Assembly (NCBI RefSeq): GCF_000378045.1
Contig: NZ_KB899116.1
Coordinates: forward strand, 1 to 62,067
Length of the DNA stretch: 62,067 nucleotides
Origin: Marinobacterium rhizophilum DSM 18822
Lineage (GTDB): Bacteria; Pseudomonadota; Gammaproteobacteria; Pseudomonadales; Balneatricaceae
Direction: 5' to 3'
Part shown: piece by piece, positions 13,397 to 53,885 of the stretch
Numbering within the stretch: the stretch's first letter is position 1
Layout of the letters: each line of letters begins with the position of its first letter
Program-made: the position numbers and the translations under genes
The notes under the pieces: generated by a model
Seen by the model: the letters and a program-made list of their open reading frames with translations, nothing else
Databases searched by the model: none
Told to the model about the DNA's origin: nothing

Positions 13397-13482
13397 GCCC
13401 AAGTGGTGGAATTGGTAGACACGCTATCTTGAGGGGGTAGTGTCCCTAGGACGTGCCGGTTCGAGTCCGGCCTTGGGCACCA
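13397..13482 (+). tRNA. tRNA-Leu (anticodon GAG)
   Basis: Acceptor arms GCCCAAG and CTTGGGC pair fully. The D arm contains TGGTAGAC, the anticodon arm CTATCTTGAGGGGGTAG carries anticodon GAG, and a long variable arm marks a class II tRNA. The T arm is CCGGTTCGAGTCCGG, followed by discriminator A and an encoded CCA. Length is 86 nt. Confidence 0.97.
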
Positions 13483-13527: not shown

Positions 13528-13604
<77 letters not shown>

Positions 13605-19660: not shown

Positions 19661-19802
19661 AACGGTCGCTGATAGCCCGGGTTGTCGCTCTTCGCAGTGG
19701 CGGGCAAGCTGATTGGCGTTGTACTGATAATATGCTCGGTACATCGTTTCTTCTTAACAGGCGGCACAAGCCGCACGCATATTGATATTGGAGCTGGATA
19801 AA

Positions 19803-20072
19803 ATGGCATTAGCTGTAGAGAAAAAAGCAGAGATCGTTAAAGACTTCGCCCGCGGTGAAGGTGATACCGGATCTCCTGAAGTTCAGGTTGCTCTGCTGTC
19901 CTTCAACATTCAGGGACTGCAGGATCACTTCAAAGAGCACAAGCACGATCACCACTCCCGTCGTGGTCTGATTCGCATGGTTAACCAGCGCCGCAAGCTG
20001 CTGGACTACCTGAAGAAGAAAGATGCTGATCGCTACCTGAAGCTGATCGCGCGCCTGGGTCTGCGCCGCTAA
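19803..20072 (+). CDS. rpsO: 30S ribosomal protein S15
   Basis: S15 binds the three-way junction of helices 20-22 in 16S rRNA. The 89-residue product has [30 protein letters not shown] and [13 protein letters not shown], all family-diagnostic. ATG 19803 gives [16 protein letters not shown] lies nine bases upstream. The 142-base gap after truB probably carries its own promoter, but no convincing -35/-10 pair stands out. Confidence 0.98.
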
Positions 20073-31757: not shown

Positions 31758-32249
31758 TTATAACGAGATCCGTTCCAGTGTGCCTATAGGGTATTCACTT
31801 AACAGCGTTGCCAGCGGGCGACCATCCTGCAGTGCCAGATCGGGGCTGATTTCACTCAGGGGCCAAAGTACAAAGTTGCGTTCATGCATGCCTGGGTGAG
31901 GAACCGACAGTCGTTCAGTGGATATGGTTTCCTCACCGTACAGCAGCAGGTCCAGGTCCAGCGTGCGGGGGCCCCAGCGCTCCAGCCGTACGCGTTGATG
32001 CAGTTGCTCCAATGCCTGTAGTTGATCCAGCAGGCTGTGCGCATCCAGTGTCGTTTCGAGCAGTGCCACGGCGTTAACGTAGTCCGGCTGATCCTGTGGT
32101 CCCATGGGTGGGGAGCGATACAGGCTGGAGTGGGTCAGCAAGTGAGTGCCGGGCAGTGTCGCCAGCTCCTCCAGAGCGCGCGCAACCTGTTGTTGCGGCG
32201 AGTCCAGATTACTGCCCAGGCCTATATAGCAGCGGATGGCCTTATGCAT
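31758..32249 (-). CDS. folK: Hydroxymethyl-dihydropterin pyrophosphokinase
   Basis: FolK transfers pyrophosphate from ATP to 6-hydroxymethyl-7,8-dihydropterin, the step before FolP. From ATG 32249 the product is 163 residues with [16 protein letters not shown] near the start, the HPPK signature [15 protein letters not shown], and [16 protein letters not shown]. The start overlaps the pcnB stop region by eight bases, indicating translational coupling. A longer frame reading into pcnB exists but is unlikely. The order pcnB-folK-panB-panC is the conserved pseudomonad cluster. Confidence 0.94.
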
Positions 32250-33684
32250 CGCGCTGGCGGGTACGAGGCTTGCGCCGACGCTTGCGCGGTTTGGCGGCAG
32301 AGGGGCTGAGATCGTCCTGGAGCGATGCTCGGTCATTGCTATTGGCGCTCTGGTAATCAGTCCACCACTGACTCAGGCCATCCAGGTCTTCACCACTGGA
32401 CTCACGCAAAAGCAGCAGGTCGTAGGCGGCCCTGAAGCGTGGATGCTCCATCAGGCGTTCTGCGCGGTTACCCTGGCGTTTGGGAAGGCGTAGCTGTAAC
32501 TCCCAGATTTCGCGTAGCGGGGTAGAGAAGCGACGGGGTATCGCGGTATGGCGGATCTGGGCGGCGATGACCTCATTGGCCGCTTCGTGCAGCGCTGGCA
32601 AGGGCGGCATGCGGCCTTCTTTCATCAGACTGTTCAGACGCAGCTGCATGGGATACCAAAGCAAGGCGGCGAACAGGAAGGCGGGTGTAACGCTCTTGCC
32701 CTGTTCCAGCCGGCGGTCGGTATTGCGCAGTGCCTTGAGAATCAGTTCCTCTACCGGCAGGCCTGCAGCGGGGCCTCGCTTGATTGCACTCTGGACCTGG
32801 GGGAACAGTTGCTCGAACAGGCCGTACGTCTGCATCTGCTTGTAGGCGGCAACACCATGGCCGGACTGCAGCAGCTTGAGCACTTCATCAAACATGCGTG
32901 CGGCGGCAATATCTCGCAACAGCGGAGCCAGTTCAGGGATGGGTGCCGCGGTAGCCGGTTCAATGTCGAACTCCAGTTTGGCAGCAAAACGAACAGCCCG
33001 CAGCATGCGTACGGGGTCTTCGCGGTAGCGTGACGCAGGGTCGCCGATCATGCGAATGACCTTATGCCCGATATCGCGGTAGCCGCCGGCGAAGTCATGC
33101 ACGCTGTGGTCCTGGGCCGAGTAGTAGAGGGCGTTGATGGTGAAGTCGCGGCGCAAGGCGTCTTCGCGCAGCGTGCCATAGACGTTGTCGCGCAGTATCA
33201 GACCGCTGGCGGCCTGGCGGCCGTCTTCGCCATCTTCGTTTCGGTCTTCCGTGTCATGTCCGGCGCGGAAGGTTGCAACTTCGATCACTTCACGCCCAAA
33301 GCGGACATGGACCAGCTTGAAGCGGCGGCCGATCAGACGCGAGCGCCGAAACAGTTCTTCGGCCTGTTCCGGTGTGGCGGACGTGGCTACATCGAAGTCC
33401 TTGGGACGCAGACCCAGCAGAATATCGCGTATGCAACCTCCCACGAGATAGGCTTCATGACCATCATCGTTAAGGCGATGAACGACTTTCAGCGCATTCT
33501 CATCGAGATGCTGGCGGGGGATGTTGTGTTGGTCTCGGGTGATGACGCTTTCAAGCGTGCTGCCTTCAGTGGCAGACTTCTCATCAGTATCCAGCTTGGG
33601 TGCCATATATCTTCTACGCAGTAGCAGGGTGGCGCCAATAAGGATAACCGCAATAGCCGCGGCTATGAACAGGCTCATATCCAT
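32242..33684 (-). CDS. pcnB: Poly(A) polymerase I with N-terminal membrane anchor
   Basis: PcnB adds 3' poly(A) tails that promote RNA decay. The nucleotidyltransferase core has LVGGCIRDILLGLRPKDFDVATSATPE (catalytic Asp pair), the RRFKLVHVRFG motif and RRDFTINALYY. RYREDPVRMLRAVRFAAKL and a basic C-terminal tail ([13 protein letters not shown]) follow, as in E. coli PAP I. Unlike E. coli, the protein begins with a clear transmembrane helix, MDMSLFIAAAIAVILIGATLLL, followed by three arginines, predicting membrane anchoring with the catalytic part in the cytoplasm. If translation instead began at Met27 the anchor would be lost. No Shine-Dalgarno precedes the ATG; an A-rich Hfq/Crc-type motif sits there instead. 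Confidence 0.9.
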   Translation of the reverse strand: MDMSLFIAAAIAVILIGATLLLRRRYMAPKLDTDEKSATEGSTLESVITRDQHNIPRQHLDENALKVVHRLNDDGHEAYLVGGCIRDILLGLRPKDFDVATSATPEQAEELFRRSRLIGRRFKLVHVRFGREVIEVATFRAGHDTEDRNEDGEDGRQAASGLILRDNVYGTLREDALRRDFTINALYYSAQDHSVHDFAGGYRDIGHKVIRMIGDPASRYREDPVRMLRAVRFAAKLEFDIEPATAAPIPELAPLLRDIAAARMFDEVLKLLQSGHGVAAYKQMQTYGLFEQLFPQVQSAIKRGPAAGLPVEELILKALRNTDRRLEQGKSVTPAFLFAALLWYPMQLRLNSLMKEGRMPPLPALHEAANEVIAAQIRHTAIPRRFSTPLREIWELQLRLPKRQGNRAERLMEHPRFRAAYDLLLLRESSGEDLDGLSQWWTDYQSANSNDRASLQDDLSPSAAKPRKRRRKPRTRQRDA

Positions 33685-33687
33685 AAG

Positions 33688-33702
33688 TGTTTGTTTTTTG
33701 TT
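33688..33702 (-). promoter_or_regulatory. A-rich Hfq/Crc-type motif at the pcnB start codon
   Basis: On the minus strand the bases just before the pcnB ATG read AACAAAAAACAAACA, matching the AAnAAnAA pattern bound by Hfq with Crc, three bases from the start codon. In pseudomonads such motifs at translation starts mark targets of catabolite repression. The same motif type is carried by the two small RNAs upstream. Confidence 0.55.
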
Positions 33703-33814
33703 CGCCCTGGCGGTGGAAGTCGCGCATCATATCACTGTTGCCGGCTCAGTATAAGAGTGGCTTTTTGGCGCGGTGCTAAGCTGGAATGGCAGATCGGAAG
33801 GGGGGGTGAATAAA

Positions 33815-34037
33815 AGATGAGTTAGCCGACCACCGTGATTAGAACGCAACCTGTGACTTATTTTTATTCAGGTCAATGCGATTCTCAATCTAGGGTTTGG
33901 GGACCTTCGTGACAACGCACGGCAGTCAGCTACAGGCCTCGTTGTTATTTTTATTCGAGGTGGGTTATCTGGAAGAGTCGACCGAATTTATTTTTATTGT
34001 TGGTCTGGTTTCGCAGGTAACGGTGTTGTTGTTCTGG
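33815..34037 (-). ncRNA. CrcZ/CrcY-like sRNA, pcnB-proximal copy
   Basis: Predicted small RNA starting near 34037, 12 bases after the sigma-54 -12 element. It opens with AACAACAACA, then displays AAUAAAAAUAA-type motifs in three hairpins. Stems GACCGA/TTGGTC close at 33980-34005, CCTCG/CGAGG at 33937-33960 and ACCTG/CAGGT at 33849-33873. Such motifs let CrcZ sequester Hfq and Crc and relieve catabolite repression. Location between cbrB and pcnB, sigma-54 promoter and activator site all match the CrcZ locus of pseudomonads. No clear terminator is seen, so the 3' end is approximate and the RNA may continue to pcnB. Confidence 0.75.
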
Positions 34038-34047
34038 CATGTAATAG

Positions 34048-34063
34048 AGCATGCATTGTGCCA
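34048..34063 (-). promoter_or_regulatory. Sigma-54 promoter of the pcnB-proximal sRNA
   Basis: The minus strand reads TGGCACAATGCATGCT: a perfect TGGCAC -24 element and GC at -12 with exactly ten bases between GG and GC. Transcription would start near 34037, just before the first A-rich motif. Confidence 0.75.
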
Positions 34064-34126
34064 GTTTTTGTAAGTCATTGTTATTGATGTAAATGTTCGT
34101 TTTTTGGGTTCTTTCCAAGACTCAGG

Positions 34127-34144
34127 GTAACGTCAAAGTGTTAC
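34127..34144. promoter_or_regulatory. Putative CbrB activator site, pcnB-proximal sRNA
   Basis: GTAAC (34127-34131) and GTTAC (34140-34144) are inverted half-sites separated by eight bases, centred about 98 bases upstream of the predicted start. A further GTAAC lies at 34184-34188. The arrangement equals the site upstream of the other sRNA. The CbrB assignment is inferred. The remaining 34190-34640 stretch shows no supported gene; it contains a short TGCAGA tandem at 34325-34345. Confidence 0.6.
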
Positions 34145-34639
34145 TTTTTGGAACGACTTGGTAGCACCTTGATGGGTAGCAGGGTAACAGCGCGCCCGCC
34201 CGGTACAATTAACAGGGGTGACTGCCCCAGGCAGTGCAGAGCAGAATCCAGTGTACAGAAGGGCACCAGGCTTCGGCTCAGAATGTTGATGGCGGCGATC
34301 ACCAAAAGGTGTCAGGCGTTTGGGTGCAGATGCAGATGCAGATGCTGTGCCTGGATGGGAAGCTAAACTGTGACGGATCTTGCAGTGGCGTGAAGCGCTG
34401 CCCTGTAACGGCAACTCCGAAGTTTTAGGTATCCAATAGGGGTCTGGGTGGTCAGCTCGGGCATGAGTGGAGCTGTGGCCGAATGCATCGCAGGTGTGGA
34501 TTGAGCGCCAGTGACGAGTATCGTGCTTGTCCAGATGCAAGTGTCTGTGAATCAAAAAACGAAGGCAGTGTTGCAAGGGGAAGAAGTACAGGAGGGTAGA
34601 ACGGAAAAGAGGTTTGAAGCCAGAAGGGGTTCAGTTACG

Positions 34640-34862
34640 AGATGGGTGGCTGATCACCGGGCAAAAACCATCATGACCTGTTGTTATTTTTATTCAGGTG
34701 CGAGGATCGGGGATCCCAGATGCATGTTCGGTGACCAGCGCAGGCCTCATTTATTATTTTTAGTGAGGCTAGCTACTCGTACGATCTCTCCGCAGTTATT
34801 TTTATTCTGGAGGTTTCGCCGGTAAGTATTTTGTTGTTCTTCTTAATTCTTGTTTTTCTTGG
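34640..34862 (-). ncRNA. CrcZ-like sRNA, cbrB-proximal copy
   Basis: Predicted small RNA starting near 34862. Its first 35 bases are A-rich, with AAGAAAAACAAGAA (34847-34860) and AAGAAGAACAACAAAA (34829-34844). Three hairpins follow with A-rich loops. Stems CTCC/GGAG close at 34788-34812, GCCTCA/TGAGGC at 34744-34769 and ACCTG/CAGGT at 34676-34699. Loops read AAUAAAAAUAA or a close variant, giving five AAnAAnAA-type motifs in all. It is a diverged paralogue of the copy at 33.8-34.0 kb in the same orientation. The 3' end is not defined; T runs occur near 34663 and 34551. Confidence 0.78.
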
Positions 34863-34872
34863 TTCTTAAGAG

Positions 34873-34888
34873 TGCACGGCCTGTGCCA
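34873..34888 (-). promoter_or_regulatory. Sigma-54 promoter of the cbrB-proximal sRNA
   Basis: The minus strand reads TGGCACAGGCCGTGCA: perfect TGGCAC at -24, TGCA at -12, and ten bases between GG and GC. An AT-rich stretch (34890-34935) separates it from the activator palindromes, suitable for DNA bending. Confidence 0.8.
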
Positions 34889-34947
34889 TGTTTTATAACT
34901 TGCTGTTTAATATGAATATTTTTATTATTTAACGCTTTTCATGTCGC

Positions 34948-34971
34948 AAGGTAACAGCGGTTTGTTACCTT
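34948..34971. promoter_or_regulatory. Putative CbrB activator palindrome 1
   Basis: AAGGTAACA and TGTTACCTT are perfect 9-base inverted arms separated by six bases, centred about 98 bases upstream of the predicted sRNA start. The GTAAC-N8-GTTAC core spacing equals that of the other sRNA copy. Confidence 0.65.
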
Positions 34972-35017
34972 AGGGAACGTCTTGCGAAACATATCTGGGT
35001 GCAGAGGTAACACTAAA

Positions 35018-35038
35018 GCGGTAACACTTTGTTACCGC
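35018..35038. promoter_or_regulatory. Putative CbrB activator palindrome 2
   Basis: GCGGTAACA and TGTTACCGC are perfect 9-base inverted arms separated by CTT, with another GTAAC half-site at 35007-35011 and a GTTAC overlapping the cbrB stop (35053-35057). As RNA it could also form a short hairpin after cbrB, but no T tract follows. Confidence 0.55.
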
Positions 35039-35053
35039 CTGGCGACCCGGACG

Positions 35054-36442
<1,389 letters not shown>

Positions 36443-36483: not shown

Positions 36484-39399
36484 TCAAAGTTCCGACAGCG
36501 GAAGTCCAGGTAAGGTGATGACCACTAGAGTGCCTTTATTCTGTTTTTTGTCGGCAGGGCTAAGTATTTCGATATTACCATAGTGTTCCTCGATAATATT
36601 GTAGACCAACGGTAAACCCAATCCGGTTCCCTTGCCCGGATCCTTCGTGGTGAAAAAAGGCTCAAACAGACGGTCCTGCAGTTCAGCGGGAATGCCACTG
36701 CCTTCGTCCTGCATACGGATGATGACCTTCTCGTCTTCCTGCTCTGCGCTGATGCTGATCAGGCCCAGCTCGGGCGAGGCGTCGCAGGCATTATTGAGCA
36801 GGTTAACAAAGACCTGCAGCAGCTGCTGCAGGTCGCCCACGACCTGCAAGTGTGGCGGCACGTCGTTTTGGTAACGCTGGTGTCGGCCGCGGCTGTCGAG
36901 CGAGACGAGCTGAATGGCTTCGGCGATGCAGGCATATATATCGACAGGGTCATGCTGGGTGACATGGTCCTGGCGCCCGGTGTGCGCAAAGCGGACCAGT
37001 GACTGTACAATGCGGCTGATACGCTTGGTCTGATCGAGGATTTGCTCGCCGGATTCGAGCACCAGCGGACTTTCGGTTTCAAATTTCAGGTTCTGTGCCA
37101 GGCAGGCTATGCCAGTGACCGGGTTGCCGATCTCGTGGGCCACTCCTGCGGCGAAGCGCCCGATGGACGCGAGCCGTTCGTTGTGCGCCAGCTTGTCGGC
37201 CAGCATGAGCGTGTCGGATTCGTCTTCCAGCAGAATGACCATGCCCGAATGCGCTTTTTGTTCGTTGAGCTGGGCCTTGTGCAGGCTGAACCAGCGTGGC
37301 TGGCCATTGACGACCAGTTTCTGGTTCGGCAGGTGTGACCGGTCACTTTCGGTGAAGCAGGTGAACAGCTCGCCCCAGGGGGCTGGCAGCGAGGCGGGAC
37401 GCCAGGTCAGCACATCGTCTGCCGACAGGCCGGTGTAGTGTTCAATTTCCGCGTTCCAGAACAGAATGCGGCCATCGCTGTCCAGCGTGCAGACTCCCAC
37501 GGGCAGTTTTTGCAGCGTGAGACGGTGATAACGCCGCAGCTCGTCCAGTTCTGCTGCCAGGCCTCCCAGGCGCTGATGGTATTGCTCCAGCTGGGATTCC
37601 AGCAAGTGCACATCGCGAGCCCTGAACCCTTCGATCGGGTCGTGACGATCCAGTGGCTCGAGGATGGTGGCGGCCTCCACTGGCCCGACCAGGCCGGACA
37701 AATGTTGCTCCAGCTGAGTGCGCAGGCGCAGCAGGTCCAGCGGCGACAGTACTTCATAGCTGATACCCAGCTGGCCAATGGCGCTTTGCAGCTCACGCTT
37801 CGCCGTCTCGGTGCCCAGTCGCGGACGCAGCAGTGCTTCGAAATCTTCCACCCGGGTGGCGTTCAGACGAATGCCCATAGGCTGCTGCATGACATTCAGC
37901 ATGCAGGCGTCGGCAGCCTTGCGTTCTTCGTCGCCCGTGGGAAGCAGACGTGATGCGACCACCAGTACCACACAGTTGAGCAGCAGGGAAAATACGGCCG
38001 ACTGATGCCAGTCATCGGTATTGATGTCAAAGTCCAGCACATTGATGTTCTGATCCAGCGCAATCGGCAGCAGCATGGTCAGCAACCAGCTGCCGGTACC
38101 GGTGCACAGGCCCAGCACGAATCCCCAGCGGTTAATGCCGGCCCAGAACAGGGTGGCCAGCAGACCGGGCAGGAATTGCAGAAAGGAAATAAAGGCGATC
38201 AGCGCCAGCAAATAGAGAGTCTCGGGCCGGGAATACTGGGTATAGAACAAATAGCTGCTGCTCATCAACACCACAATCAGGATGCGGCGCAGCCACAGCA
38301 GCCAGTTGTAGAAGCGCACATTGTCGGGTACCTGGGTGATGGGCAGCAGTAGATGGTTCTGCAGCATGGAGGCCATGGAAACGGTCGCAACGATAATGAC
38401 GCCACTGGCCGCTGAAAGGCCACCCAGAAAGGCAAGCAAGGTCAGTGTCTTGGAGTCGAGTACGACACCGATGTTGAGTACCAGGTACTCGGTGACCTCG
38501 GTGGCCTCGAGCTTCATGCCGGCCCAGACGATAATCGGTACTGTCAGCGCCATAAAAAACAGGTACAGGGGCATCAGCCACGAGGCCTTTTGCAGGCTCA
38601 GGGCCGATGAGTTTTCGGTGAAGGCCAGATGGTACATATGCGGCATAACGATGGTTGTGGCGAAAAACGCCAGCAGCAGGGTATGCCAGTTCTCGTTTTC
38701 CGGGATGTGCTGAATGCTTTTCAGGGCGGCGGGATTATCGGCCAGCCACTGCTCCAGCCCGGCTGGACCGCCAAAAATGATGAACAGCGAATAGCCGGCG
38801 ATGGCCAGCAGGGCAGCCAGCTTGATCAGCGACTCCACCGCCATGGCCACCACCAGGCCGTTGTTGCGGTTGCGCAACGATGCGTGACGAGCGCCGAACA
38901 GAATCGCGAACAGCGCCATGACGGCGCAAAAGGTGGCGGCGATGAGGTCTCGAGGGGCATCCTTGTTGAGCAGGTATAGCGAATCGGCCACCGCCTGGAT
39001 CTGGATGGCAATCAGGGGCAGGGTGGCGGCGACAACCAGCAATGACGTCAGAGTGCCGACGGGGCCACTGCGAAAGCGGAACGCGAAGAGGTCGGCCAGC
39101 GAGCTGAGCTGATGGGTGCGGGAGATCCGCAGAATCGGCACCATGATGGCTGGCGCCAGTACAAAGGCCAGGGTCGCGGCCAAGTAAGAGGTCAGGTAAG
39201 TGATACCGGCATCCTGCACCATGCCGAAGATGCCGTAGAAGGTCCAGACACTGGCATAGATCCCCAGTGAGAGTGCATGTACCAGGGGGTGGCGTACCAG
39301 TCGCTTGGGCAATTTACCGCGTTCAGTCAGGTAGGCGGCGCCAAACAACACCAGCAAATAACTGACGCCGGCAATGAAAAGAGCATGAATACTAAACAT
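36484..39399 (-). CDS. cbrA: Transporter-fused sensor histidine kinase CbrA
   Basis: CbrA couples a sodium/solute symporter-like module to a histidine kinase and phosphorylates CbrB. The 971-residue product begins with about 13 membrane helices of the SSS/PutP type (residues 1 to about 490, for example LGIYASVWTFYGIFGMVQDAG). A PAS-like segment with VGVCTLDSDGRILFWN, the dimerisation motif FAAGVAHEIGNPVTG with the phosphoacceptor His, and the ATPase boxes NACDASPELG, DEGSGIP and GKGTGLGLPLVYNII follow. Its start overlaps cbrX by eight bases, suggesting translational coupling. Downstream are cbrB and the sRNA genes. Confidence 0.94.
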   Translation of the reverse strand: MFSIHALFIAGVSYLLVLFGAAYLTERGKLPKRLVRHPLVHALSLGIYASVWTFYGIFGMVQDAGITYLTSYLAATLAFVLAPAIMVPILRISRTHQLSSLADLFAFRFRSGPVGTLTSLLVVAATLPLIAIQIQAVADSLYLLNKDAPRDLIAATFCAVMALFAILFGARHASLRNRNNGLVVAMAVESLIKLAALLAIAGYSLFIIFGGPAGLEQWLADNPAALKSIQHIPENENWHTLLLAFFATTIVMPHMYHLAFTENSSALSLQKASWLMPLYLFFMALTVPIIVWAGMKLEATEVTEYLVLNIGVVLDSKTLTLLAFLGGLSAASGVIIVATVSMASMLQNHLLLPITQVPDNVRFYNWLLWLRRILIVVLMSSSYLFYTQYSRPETLYLLALIAFISFLQFLPGLLATLFWAGINRWGFVLGLCTGTGSWLLTMLLPIALDQNINVLDFDINTDDWHQSAVFSLLLNCVVLVVASRLLPTGDEERKAADACMLNVMQQPMGIRLNATRVEDFEALLRPRLGTETAKRELQSAIGQLGISYEVLSPLDLLRLRTQLEQHLSGLVGPVEAATILEPLDRHDPIEGFRARDVHLLESQLEQYHQRLGGLAAELDELRRYHRLTLQKLPVGVCTLDSDGRILFWNAEIEHYTGLSADDVLTWRPASLPAPWGELFTCFTESDRSHLPNQKLVVNGQPRWFSLHKAQLNEQKAHSGMVILLEDESDTLMLADKLAHNERLASIGRFAAGVAHEIGNPVTGIACLAQNLKFETESPLVLESGEQILDQTKRISRIVQSLVRFAHTGRQDHVTQHDPVDIYACIAEAIQLVSLDSRGRHQRYQNDVPPHLQVVGDLQQLLQVFVNLLNNACDASPELGLISISAEQEDEKVIIRMQDEGSGIPAELQDRLFEPFFTTKDPGKGTGLGLPLVYNIIEEHYGNIEILSPADKKQNKGTLVVITLPGLPLSEL

Positions 39400-50698: not shown

Positions 50699-51178
50699 TC
50701 AGCGGCGCAGGTGGTTGAGGATATCCAGTGTTGTCACGACGCCTGCCAGTTCGCCATCCCGAGTGATAAACACGCGGTGAATGTGGTTGGTGCACATCAA
50801 GTCCACGGCGTCGTTGAGCGATGCGCGCTGATCCAGTGCGATGATGTGGGGTGTCATGATTTCACTGACCAGGTGCTGGCCATGCTGGTCGCCGCCGACC
50901 AGCCCCAGTTGCTCGGGCGTCATTCCTTCAAGTCCGCTGTAATAGTATTGCGTCAGGGGATTTTCCTCGATGGAGTGCTGTGCACTGCGGTCAAAATGCA
51001 GAATATCCGTGAGGCTGACCACGCCTTTCAGGGTGCCATGGGTGTCGGTGACCGGCGCCCCGCTAATGCCATGTGCGTTGAAAAACTCTATCAGACTGTG
51101 CAGTGACCAGTGCTCTGATACCTTGAGTACATCGCCGGACATCACTGAGGCAACGGTTGCCGTGTCTAGTGTATGCAT
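50699..51178 (-). CDS. CBS-domain pair protein
   Basis: A 159-residue soluble protein made of two CBS motifs, which usually bind adenosine nucleotides. The first is VASVMSGDVLKVSEHWSLHSLIEFFNAHGISGAPVTD with GVVSLTDILHF; the second is VSEIMTPHIIALDQRASLNDAVDLM with HRVFITRDGELAGVVTTLDIL. No fused enzyme or transporter domain is present, so it is likely a stand-alone energy-sensing or regulatory module. It converges with the mrcB unit and is not obviously co-transcribed with anything. Confidence 0.9.
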   Translation of the reverse strand: MHTLDTATVASVMSGDVLKVSEHWSLHSLIEFFNAHGISGAPVTDTHGTLKGVVSLTDILHFDRSAQHSIEENPLTQYYYSGLEGMTPEQLGLVGGDQHGQHLVSEIMTPHIIALDQRASLNDAVDLMCTNHIHRVFITRDGELAGVVTTLDILNHLRR

Positions 51179-53258: not shown

Positions 53259-53885
53259 TCAGAACTGTTGGCTGAACAGCTGTGCCTGGTGCCGAATGTC
53301 GGCTGCGGCAAACAGCGCGTGAATGACGGCCACCATGCTGGCGCCGGCTTCAGCTACCTGGCGGGCATTATCCATACTAATGCCGCCTATCGCCACCACG
53401 GGCAAACCAAGTTCCTGCGCGGCCAGAGGTAAAAGCGACAGGGGGGCCGGTCGCGCGCCGGGCTTTGTTGTAGACGCAAAGAAAGCGCCAAAGGCGACAT
53501 AATCAGCCCCCGCGGCCTGGGCTTCCCGTGCCAGTGCCAGCGAGTCGTGGCAGGTTACGCCGATAATGGCATCGGGGCCCAGTTGCGAGCGTGCCGCAGC
53601 AACAGAGCCGTCGGTTTGCCCCAGGTGCACGCCCTGAGCCTTGCAGGCGCGCGCCAATGCCAGGTCGTCGTTGATCAGTAGCGGGCGTTCGAACTGGTCA
53701 CAGAGTTCACGCAACAGGGTGGCCTGGCGCAGGCGCTTTGCATTGTCGTTACTTTTGTCCCGGTACTGAACGATGGCCGCGCCGCCCTCCAGTGCGGACC
53801 GGACCTGGCTCAGCAGAGTCGCATCGTCTGGCATCAGGGTACTGTCGGTGATGGCGTAGAGGCCGTGGAGTGCGTAGGTGGTCAT
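53259..53885 (-). CDS. thiE: Thiamine-phosphate synthase
   Basis: ThiE couples hydroxymethylpyrimidine diphosphate with thiazole phosphate to give thiamine phosphate. The 208-residue barrel shows GLYAITDS, IVQYRDKSND (pyrophosphate Arg/Lys), LLINDDLALA, GVHLGQTDG, VAFGAFFASTTKPGA and VVAIGGIS. No TPP riboswitch is recognisable in the 50 bases before it. No other thiamine gene is adjacent. Confidence 0.97.
   Translation of the reverse strand: MTTYALHGLYAITDSTLMPDDATLLSQVRSALEGGAAIVQYRDKSNDNAKRLRQATLLRELCDQFERPLLINDDLALARACKAQGVHLGQTDGSVAAARSQLGPDAIIGVTCHDSLALAREAQAAGADYVAFGAFFASTTKPGARPAPLSLLPLAAQELGLPVVAIGGISMDNARQVAEAGASMVAVIHALFAAADIRHQAQLFSQQF

Follow-up and report, generated by a model that had tools for sequence, protein, structure and literature searches.

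A predicted tandem pair of short CrcZ-type small RNA genes between cbrB and pcnB in Marinobacterium rhizophilum, and the spread of related units

We analyzed a stretch of 62,067 nucleotides (nt) from Marinobacterium rhizophilum (hereinafter the window), in which the gap separating cbrB from pcnB holds two related units on the minus strand. Judged from their sequence, conservation and setting, these units are very probably tandem genes for CrcZ-type small RNAs, of a short CrcZ variant, which CbrB and sigma-54 would drive and which would act as decoys for Hfq/Crc. The gap extends from the cbrB stop to the pcnB start (33685-35053, 1369 nt), with both genes on the minus strand. An original prediction made from the bare sequence had placed two diverged minus-strand copies in a gap of 1.37 kb, and this holds: the units lie head to tail and are 69.7% identical over 195 aligned positions, the loops being preserved between unit 1 and unit 2 while many stem letters differ. 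The sigma-54 promoter, 5' A-rich motif and three hairpins with A-rich loops that it had assigned to each unit were all located.

The two units and their conserved structure

The features of the two units are as follows; R1 is the covariance model described below.

35020-35036, minus strand: unit 1 half-site pair GGTAACA-N3-TGTTACC (half-site sequences from PMC6296734)
35006-35013, minus strand: unit 1 additional half-site GTGTTACC
34950-34969, minus strand: unit 1 half-site pair GGTAACA-N6-TGTTACC
34874-34888, minus strand: unit 1 sigma-54 promoter TGGCAC-N6-TGC, conserved in congeners; predicted start 34862
34646-34862, minus strand: unit 1 predicted small RNA, 3' end tentative; R1 match 34848-34646 at 126.9 bits, a score that, like that of unit 2, is not independent, as both window units belong to the R1 training set
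34829-34860, minus strand: unit 1 5' A-rich stretch, six AAnAAnAA in two groups
34788-34812, minus strand: unit 1 hairpin 1, AATAAAAATAA in loop
34744-34769, minus strand: unit 1 hairpin 2, stem GCCTCA/TGAGGC
34729-34741, minus strand: unit 1 closing stem, 5' side
34676-34699, minus strand: unit 1 hairpin 3, stem ACCTG/CAGGT, A-rich loop
34649-34659, minus strand: unit 1 closing stem, 3' side
34183-34190, minus strand: unit 2 half-site CTGTTACC
34126-34145, minus strand: unit 2 half-site pair AGTAACA-N6-CGTTACC, second half imperfect
34049-34063, minus strand: unit 2 sigma-54 promoter TGGCAC-N6-TGC; predicted start 34037
33822-34037, minus strand: unit 2 predicted small RNA, 3' end tentative; R1 match 34040-33822, 150.6 bits
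34024-34035, minus strand: unit 2 5' A-rich motif AGAACAACAACA
33980-34005, minus strand: unit 2 hairpin 1, stem GACC/GGTC, A-rich loop
33937-33960, minus strand: unit 2 hairpin 2, stem CCTCG/CGAGG, A-rich loop
33918-33931, minus strand: unit 2 closing stem, 5' side
33848-33874, minus strand: unit 2 hairpin 3, stem ACCTG/CAGGT, A-rich loop
33824-33837, minus strand: unit 2 closing stem, 3' side

The promoter string TGGCAC-N6-TGC has its sole exact instances in the window, on either strand, at these two places (34888-34874 and 34063-34049, minus strand). Setting the predicted start 12 nt beyond the -12 element yields 34862 for unit 1 and 34037 for unit 2, the same positions that had been proposed earlier. 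On the minus strand of the gap we counted 27 AAnAAnAA motifs in 12 clusters (shuffle means 1.86 and 1.53), five exact copies of AATAAAAATAA (shuffle mean 0.00), and seven GTAACA/TGTTAC half-sites (shuffle mean 0.69); none of 1000 dinucleotide shuffles reached any of the observed values. Unit 1 accounts for five of the clusters, two of which belong to its 5' stretch, and unit 2 for four, while the remaining three fall outside the units, which agrees with the earlier estimate of about four and five motifs per copy. Five of the six hairpin loops contain AATAAAAATAA, the remaining one (unit 1 hairpin 2) having AAAAATAATAA. The predicted RNA would be about 215 nt long in each unit, with the conserved part stopping near +215. 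A protein-coding reading of the units was rejected, as all three minus-strand frames of each contain stops. The roughly 450 nt separating them (34190-34640) have no R1 match, and an open reading frame (ORF) of 147 amino acids lies inside the gap (34133-34576, minus strand).

Under the proposed mechanism, exhaustion of the preferred carbon source would lead CbrB to bind the GTAACA/TGTTAC half-sites and to drive sigma-54 transcription starting at 34862 and 34037. With its A-rich 5' stretch and the A-rich loops of its three hairpins, each RNA of about 215 nt would then offer binding sites to Hfq, by way of its distal face, and to Crc. In this way the two RNAs would draw the Hfq/Crc repressor away from catabolic mRNAs, relieving repression.

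The structure was assessed on alignment A2, which holds 44 family units out of 48 distinct ones (53 in all); left out were the third copy of locus L021, cut by the locus end, and L079, L086 and L113, whose closing stem the pattern missed, and the ends of six other A2 units were set by eye. RNAalifold on A2 returned two helices, namely hairpin 2 and a long stem closing over hairpin 3; this closing stem is present in both window units and had been overlooked in the earlier account, whose three hairpins were nevertheless found. In A2, 96.7% of the 660 pair cells are paired, against 21-43% in slid versions, and both-side changes occur in 9 of 15 pairs, amounting to 68 cells versus 26.9 in shuffles; in the closing stem 95.9% of cells are paired, with both-side changes in 8 of 10 pairs, these pairing percentages being biased towards stem-bearing units because units in which the pattern missed the stem were left out. 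A further measure, that of further pair types, had its observed value reached by 289 of 500 shuffles. Since A2 consists of related units and also supplied the structure, the pair statistics count as support and not as a probability. Because MAFFT misaligned hairpins 1 and 3 between subgroups, complementarity of the loop flanks was tested instead, with the A-rich core held unpaired; the flanks are complementary on average at the three A-rich loops, where the mean z was -1.43 (40 units), -1.60 (44) and -1.54 (42), and 11/40, 18/44 and 17/42 units, themselves related, fell within the best 3 of 60 shuffles. Folded alone, the window units are moderately better than shuffles (z of -1.78 for unit 1 and -3.05 for unit 2).

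Spread, copy number and loss of the regulator

The covariance model R1 was built from A2, so that genomes supplying A2 units match by construction. It matches 63 of 115 relatives, 60 of them within the 71 family genomes; in the host genome it has exactly two matches, both in the cbrB-pcnB gap. A survey of cbrB loci took the best 80 of at least 572 relatives, ranked by likeness to the window CbrB and thus an uneven sample, of which 79 were scored (L111, too short, was excluded). At 71 of these 79 named cbrB loci a sigma-54-like site is followed by two or more A-clusters, compared with 0.3% of shuffled versions (20 per locus) and 0/79 on the opposite strand. The positive loci include Marinobacterium, Neptunomonas, Amphritea, Pontibacterium, Microbulbifer, Cellvibrio, Gilvimarinus, Zhongshania, Marinobacter, Halopseudomonas and Pseudomonas, and the promoter-to-motif spacing is conserved across genera. 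The promoters and A-rich loops, on whose conservation the original prediction had staked itself, are accordingly kept in congeners and in other genera. Nine of the scored loci have at least two units, and eight have no unit after cbrB (L057, L060, L061, L063, L080, L082, L088 and L097). A scan of viral contigs for CbrB relatives returned 14 loci of at most 49% identity and was not used.

Copy number varies within the genus: four congeners have two R1 copies each, G005 has four, and G006 has five, of which three form a tandem array after cbrB. In a tree of 39 units, unit 1 of the window groups with unit 1 of the four congeners (100/100) and unit 2 with their unit 2 (100/99), while the deeper placement of the G005 and G006 copies is weakly supported. 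These orthologous groups imply that the duplication is older than these species and that the copies have stayed distinct; the tandem pair is, on the evidence of the tree, an old duplication within Marinobacterium. The two copies of Pontibacterium are 94.3% identical and sister to each other (100/98), and tandem duplication has therefore occurred more than once. Away from the cbrB locus we found 11 copies at 10 loci (L181 to L190; genomes G005, G006, G013, G027 and G274), each with one or more half-sites by a slightly relaxed pattern and with the start of a sigma-54-like site, imperfect in L184, 19-46 nt ahead of the R1 match; L196, from G041 of another family, has no sigma-54-like site in that interval. 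In L183 (G006:C6, 3185-4918) two off-locus copies are 96.1% identical and each is followed by an ORF with a short repeat (SLVTRHS), a pattern suggestive of recent segmental duplication. In genus g8, G013 and G027 lack a copy after cbrB and have three elsewhere, and G274 has one at cbrB and one elsewhere; at the g8 loci L057 and L060 the RNA is thus separated from the regulator gene.

R1, CbrB and Crc all have matches in 52 of the 71 family genomes; seven have R1 and Crc without CbrB, six have Crc alone, four have CbrB and Crc without R1, one has R1 and CbrB without Crc, and one has none of the three; R1 misses some units, as motif units are visible in the R1-negative G010 and G016. Six of the R1-positive, CbrB-negative genomes belong to genus g3 (G008, G023, G035, G281, G293 and G303); the seventh, G291, is from genus g16, in which CbrB is present in the four other members sampled. 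The RNA comes after gluQ (NCBIfam) in each of the seven, with pcnB next in six and one locus (L195) ending inside the RNA, and all seven retain rpoN. The interval from gluQ to the first A-run contains no sigma-54-like site and no exact half-site in any of the seven. Their best sigma-70-like site, taken from several positions and scored without shuffling, reaches 9-10/12 with a spacer of 17 or 18 and ends 6-11 nt before the A-run. Promoter scans with shuffles cover three of the seven loci: two g3 loci gave 2 and 1 sites versus a shuffle mean of 0.4, and that of G291 gave 1 versus 0.8, which is no better than chance. The case for a sigma-70-like replacement is accordingly fair in g3, given its conserved boxes, and weak in G291. 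At L191, L192, L193 and L206 the region upstream of the sigma-70-like -35 box repeatedly shows a TTAGACTTTGGT-like block together with an AT-rich stretch that in some loci is a palindrome (AAGTG...CACTT); this upstream region is perhaps the operator of a replacement regulator in the CbrB-less genus.

Six genomes of genus g2 have a gluQ-type gene (so named by NCBIfam on the basis of one genome) about 150 nt or less from pcnB, with no cbrB, no RNA and a Crc match, so that the presence of Crc is no predictor of the RNA. Retention of the RNA without CbrB would fit a decoy whose supply remains needed. Taken together, these patterns make it probable, with appreciable room for doubt, that CrcZ-type decoys are ancestral in Pseudomonadales and were no invention of Pseudomonas, that two lineages lost cbrAB and kept the RNA while exchanging its sigma-54 promoter for one of sigma-70 type, and that others amplified it to as many as five copies. 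If so, the RNA rather than the activator would be the more persistent part of the switch.

Protein partners, flanking genes and alternative explanations

The M. rhizophilum genome encodes hfq, rpoN, cbrA, cbrB and a Crc homologue, and the original prediction hence does not founder on a missing crc or hfq. The flanking genes of the units are as follows.

36484-39399, minus strand: cbrA, histidine kinase with N-terminal transporter-like part (PDB 10ed; Pfam HisKA/HATPase/PAS)
35054-36442, minus strand: cbrB, NtrC-family sigma-54 activator (Response_reg receiver, Sigma54_activat and lid domain)
32242-33684, minus strand: pcnB, poly(A) polymerase (PolyA_pol domains)

Residues 2-581 of CbrA match PDB 10ed ('histidine kinase') at 525 bits, and CbrB has matches in 96 of 115 relatives (E up to 1e-100). 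The Hfq core is identical to the P. aeruginosa chain of 6o1k at 59 of 63 residues. Five proteins of the genome contain PF03372, of which L141, sitting between pyrE and rph (ribonuclease PH; NCBIfam names of the neighbors), is the Crc homologue and a putative Crc by sequence. L138 is a separate and clearer exonuclease III (351.6 bits to 1ako), and for L139 and L140 the PDB search gave no match at E up to 0.001. L141 shares 45-46% identity with three f21 proteins (family f21 being by inference Pseudomonadaceae, given matches of 307-368 bits to the Rfam CrcZ model RF01675 in G055, G095 and G178), one of which, when tested, scored 467.5 bits to P. aeruginosa Crc (4jg3). With residue roles taken from PMC6422490, L141 keeps K135, R138, K139, R140, R141, W161 and R229 of the f21 proteins and also has R233 changed to K.

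Several observations weigh against the CrcZ-type decoy interpretation or set the units apart from Pseudomonas CrcZ. The Rfam CrcZ model, whose application had been proposed as a check, does not match: RF01675 has no match in the window (E up to 10) or in the host genome, and none in 10 family genomes, the host included, among the matches listed for the order. Across the order it gives some match in 50 of 244 genomes, 11 of them above cut-off (8 of f21 and 3 of f2), and reaches other families below cut-off; f21 served as the positive control because the 14 control genomes of this search matched nowhere. Conversely, R1 hits the CrcZ position of Pseudomonas and other f21 loci weakly, at E 0.08-3 (0.003 in Atopomonas), and A-richness alone could inflate such weak matches. 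The units have about 215 nt and four site clusters (five in unit 1 by the count rule) as against about 400 nt and six in Pseudomonas CrcZ, lacking its 3' part with the last two sites, its terminator hairpin and its Rfam match. The earlier claim of an activator palindrome survives in that the half-sites form palindromic pairs besides singles, but not in arrangement, as the F1-R1-R2 order with 20-25 bp spacing of P. putida is not seen. No terminator-like site lies at the 3' ends of the units, the two in the region equaling the shuffle mean and being located elsewhere; the 70 nt past each closing stem are C-rich and G-poor (29 C; 6 or 7 G), which would suit Rho-dependent termination. Among the partners, Hfq departs from the P. 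aeruginosa core at four residues, and these include Y25 of the distal face, which is F here; a change of Y25 to D in P. aeruginosa relieved repression (PMC4063720). Against 4jg3, L141 reaches 218.6 bits, slightly below the 226.2 that it reaches against 2myi, an entry deposited as exodeoxyribonuclease III; its score to the true exonuclease 2jc5, 177.9, does not trail by much, and NCBIfam labels L141 exodeoxyribonuclease III. Its RNA contacts K155 and R196 are changed to P and K, and its Crc-Crc contacts E142, E193 and R230 to D, R and N. In P. aeruginosa Crc, R140E and E193R abolish repression and R230E rescues E193R (PMC6422490); L141 has R193 along with N230. The exonuclease naming of Crc, the Y25F change of Hfq and the weak sigma-70 site of G291 slightly lower our confidence in both the decoy function and its ancestry.

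The altered contact residues of the Crc homologue and its poor separation by score from exonucleases, alongside the near-identical Hfq core, would also suit RNAs that are driven by CbrB and sigma-54 and bind Hfq alone, as sponges with little role for Crc. We regard this as unlikely, for the basic patch K135/R138-R141 is retained and 59 of the 60 RNA-bearing family genomes have a Crc match, the exception (G287) being a 370-contig draft, in an association that is itself weak since Crc also occurs in 10 of the 11 family genomes lacking an R1 match. Instead of free small RNAs, the units might be part of a pcnB 5' leader or read-through elements of that gene, as their shared strand, the want of a clear terminator, the AAnAAnAA at -18 and -14 of pcnB and the cbrB-crcZ co-transcript of Azotobacter (PMC6292655) would allow; both the congeners and genus g8 have copies with their own sigma-54-like site at a distance from pcnB, making this quite improbable. 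We give almost no credence to functionless A-rich intergenic repeats, such as decayed repeat sequence: the units are A-rich and locally duplicated, and the folding z-score of unit 1 is modest, but stems show compensatory changes, the promoter-motif spacing is kept across genera, the strand bias is 71 versus 0 of 79 loci, and the RNA is retained where cbrB is absent. We accordingly favor CbrB-driven decoys of Hfq/Crc as the reading of the units.

The AAnAAnAA motifs at -18 and -14 relative to the pcnB start (33691-33702, minus strand) have counterparts at similar distance downstream in the congener loci L016-L019, and pcnB itself could be a candidate Hfq/Crc target. Likewise, two minus-strand ORFs (50702-51178 and 53262-53885) with AAnAAnAA 20-25 nt ahead of the start codon are possible candidate targets. 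Elsewhere in the window, Rfam finds an ordinary 5S rRNA (153-268), two tRNAs (13397-13479 and 13528-13601) and an S15 leader (19754-19859); matches to snoRNA and microRNA families, far below cut-off, were dismissed as chance.

Comparison with known systems

The host, M. rhizophilum CL-YJ9T (draft genome of 5,364,574 bases in 58 scaffolds; PMC5663061), belongs to Oceanospirillaceae of Oceanospirillales in the NCBI taxonomy and hence, as had been surmised, lies outside Pseudomonas and indeed outside Pseudomonadaceae. If the decoy interpretation is true, the layout seen in Marinobacterium and at 71 of the 79 scored loci would point to a general carbon-priority switch of many marine heterotrophs. 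The short four-site RNAs, the genus with two to five copies, and the genomes keeping the RNA and a Crc homologue without CbrB would offer natural experiments, the first of them on the minimal needs of a decoy, and the window units expose a blind spot in the Rfam CrcZ model. We found no literature on CrcZ in Marinobacter or Oceanospirillales, in a search whose coverage left most subscription journals outside.

Like Pseudomonas CrcZ (RF01675), the units lie between cbrB and pcnB, the order cbrA-cbrB-units-pcnB being that of the Pseudomonas crcZ locus, and combine a sigma-54 promoter and CbrB half-sites with a first A-rich site near the 5' end and several A-rich loops; by eye, they also share with it a long stem, starting (A)RCTGAT after the third A-site. 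We class them as a CrcZ variant because they depart from CrcZ in Rfam match, length, terminator and subsite spacing, with R1 meeting Pseudomonas CrcZ at no better than E 0.08-3. As in P. putida and Azotobacter vinelandii, whose CrcZ and CrcY are both under CbrB/RpoN (PMC6296734, PMC6292655), there are two RNAs of one kind per genome; here, however, both copies lie between cbrB and pcnB and were duplicated within the genus. The proposed label of a CrcZ/CrcY-type pair therefore stands as regards position, promoter, half-sites, A-motifs and partner genes, and implies no orthology to the Pseudomonas pair, the duplication being local to the genus. PrrF1/PrrF2 of P. aeruginosa are also tandem duplicate small RNAs, set apart by their description, with a different regulator and different targets. 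By description, too, the A-rich motifs liken the window units to sRNA99 of Acinetobacter baumannii, which has three such motifs and was itself likened to CrcZ by its authors (PMC12802169). One paper calls CbrAB exclusive to Pseudomonads (PMC6296734) and a review describes the cbrA-cbrB-crcZ order only in Pseudomonas and Azotobacter (PMC8871633); set beside these accounts, the present comparison suggests an RNA that is widespread beyond Pseudomonas and able to outlive its usual regulator.

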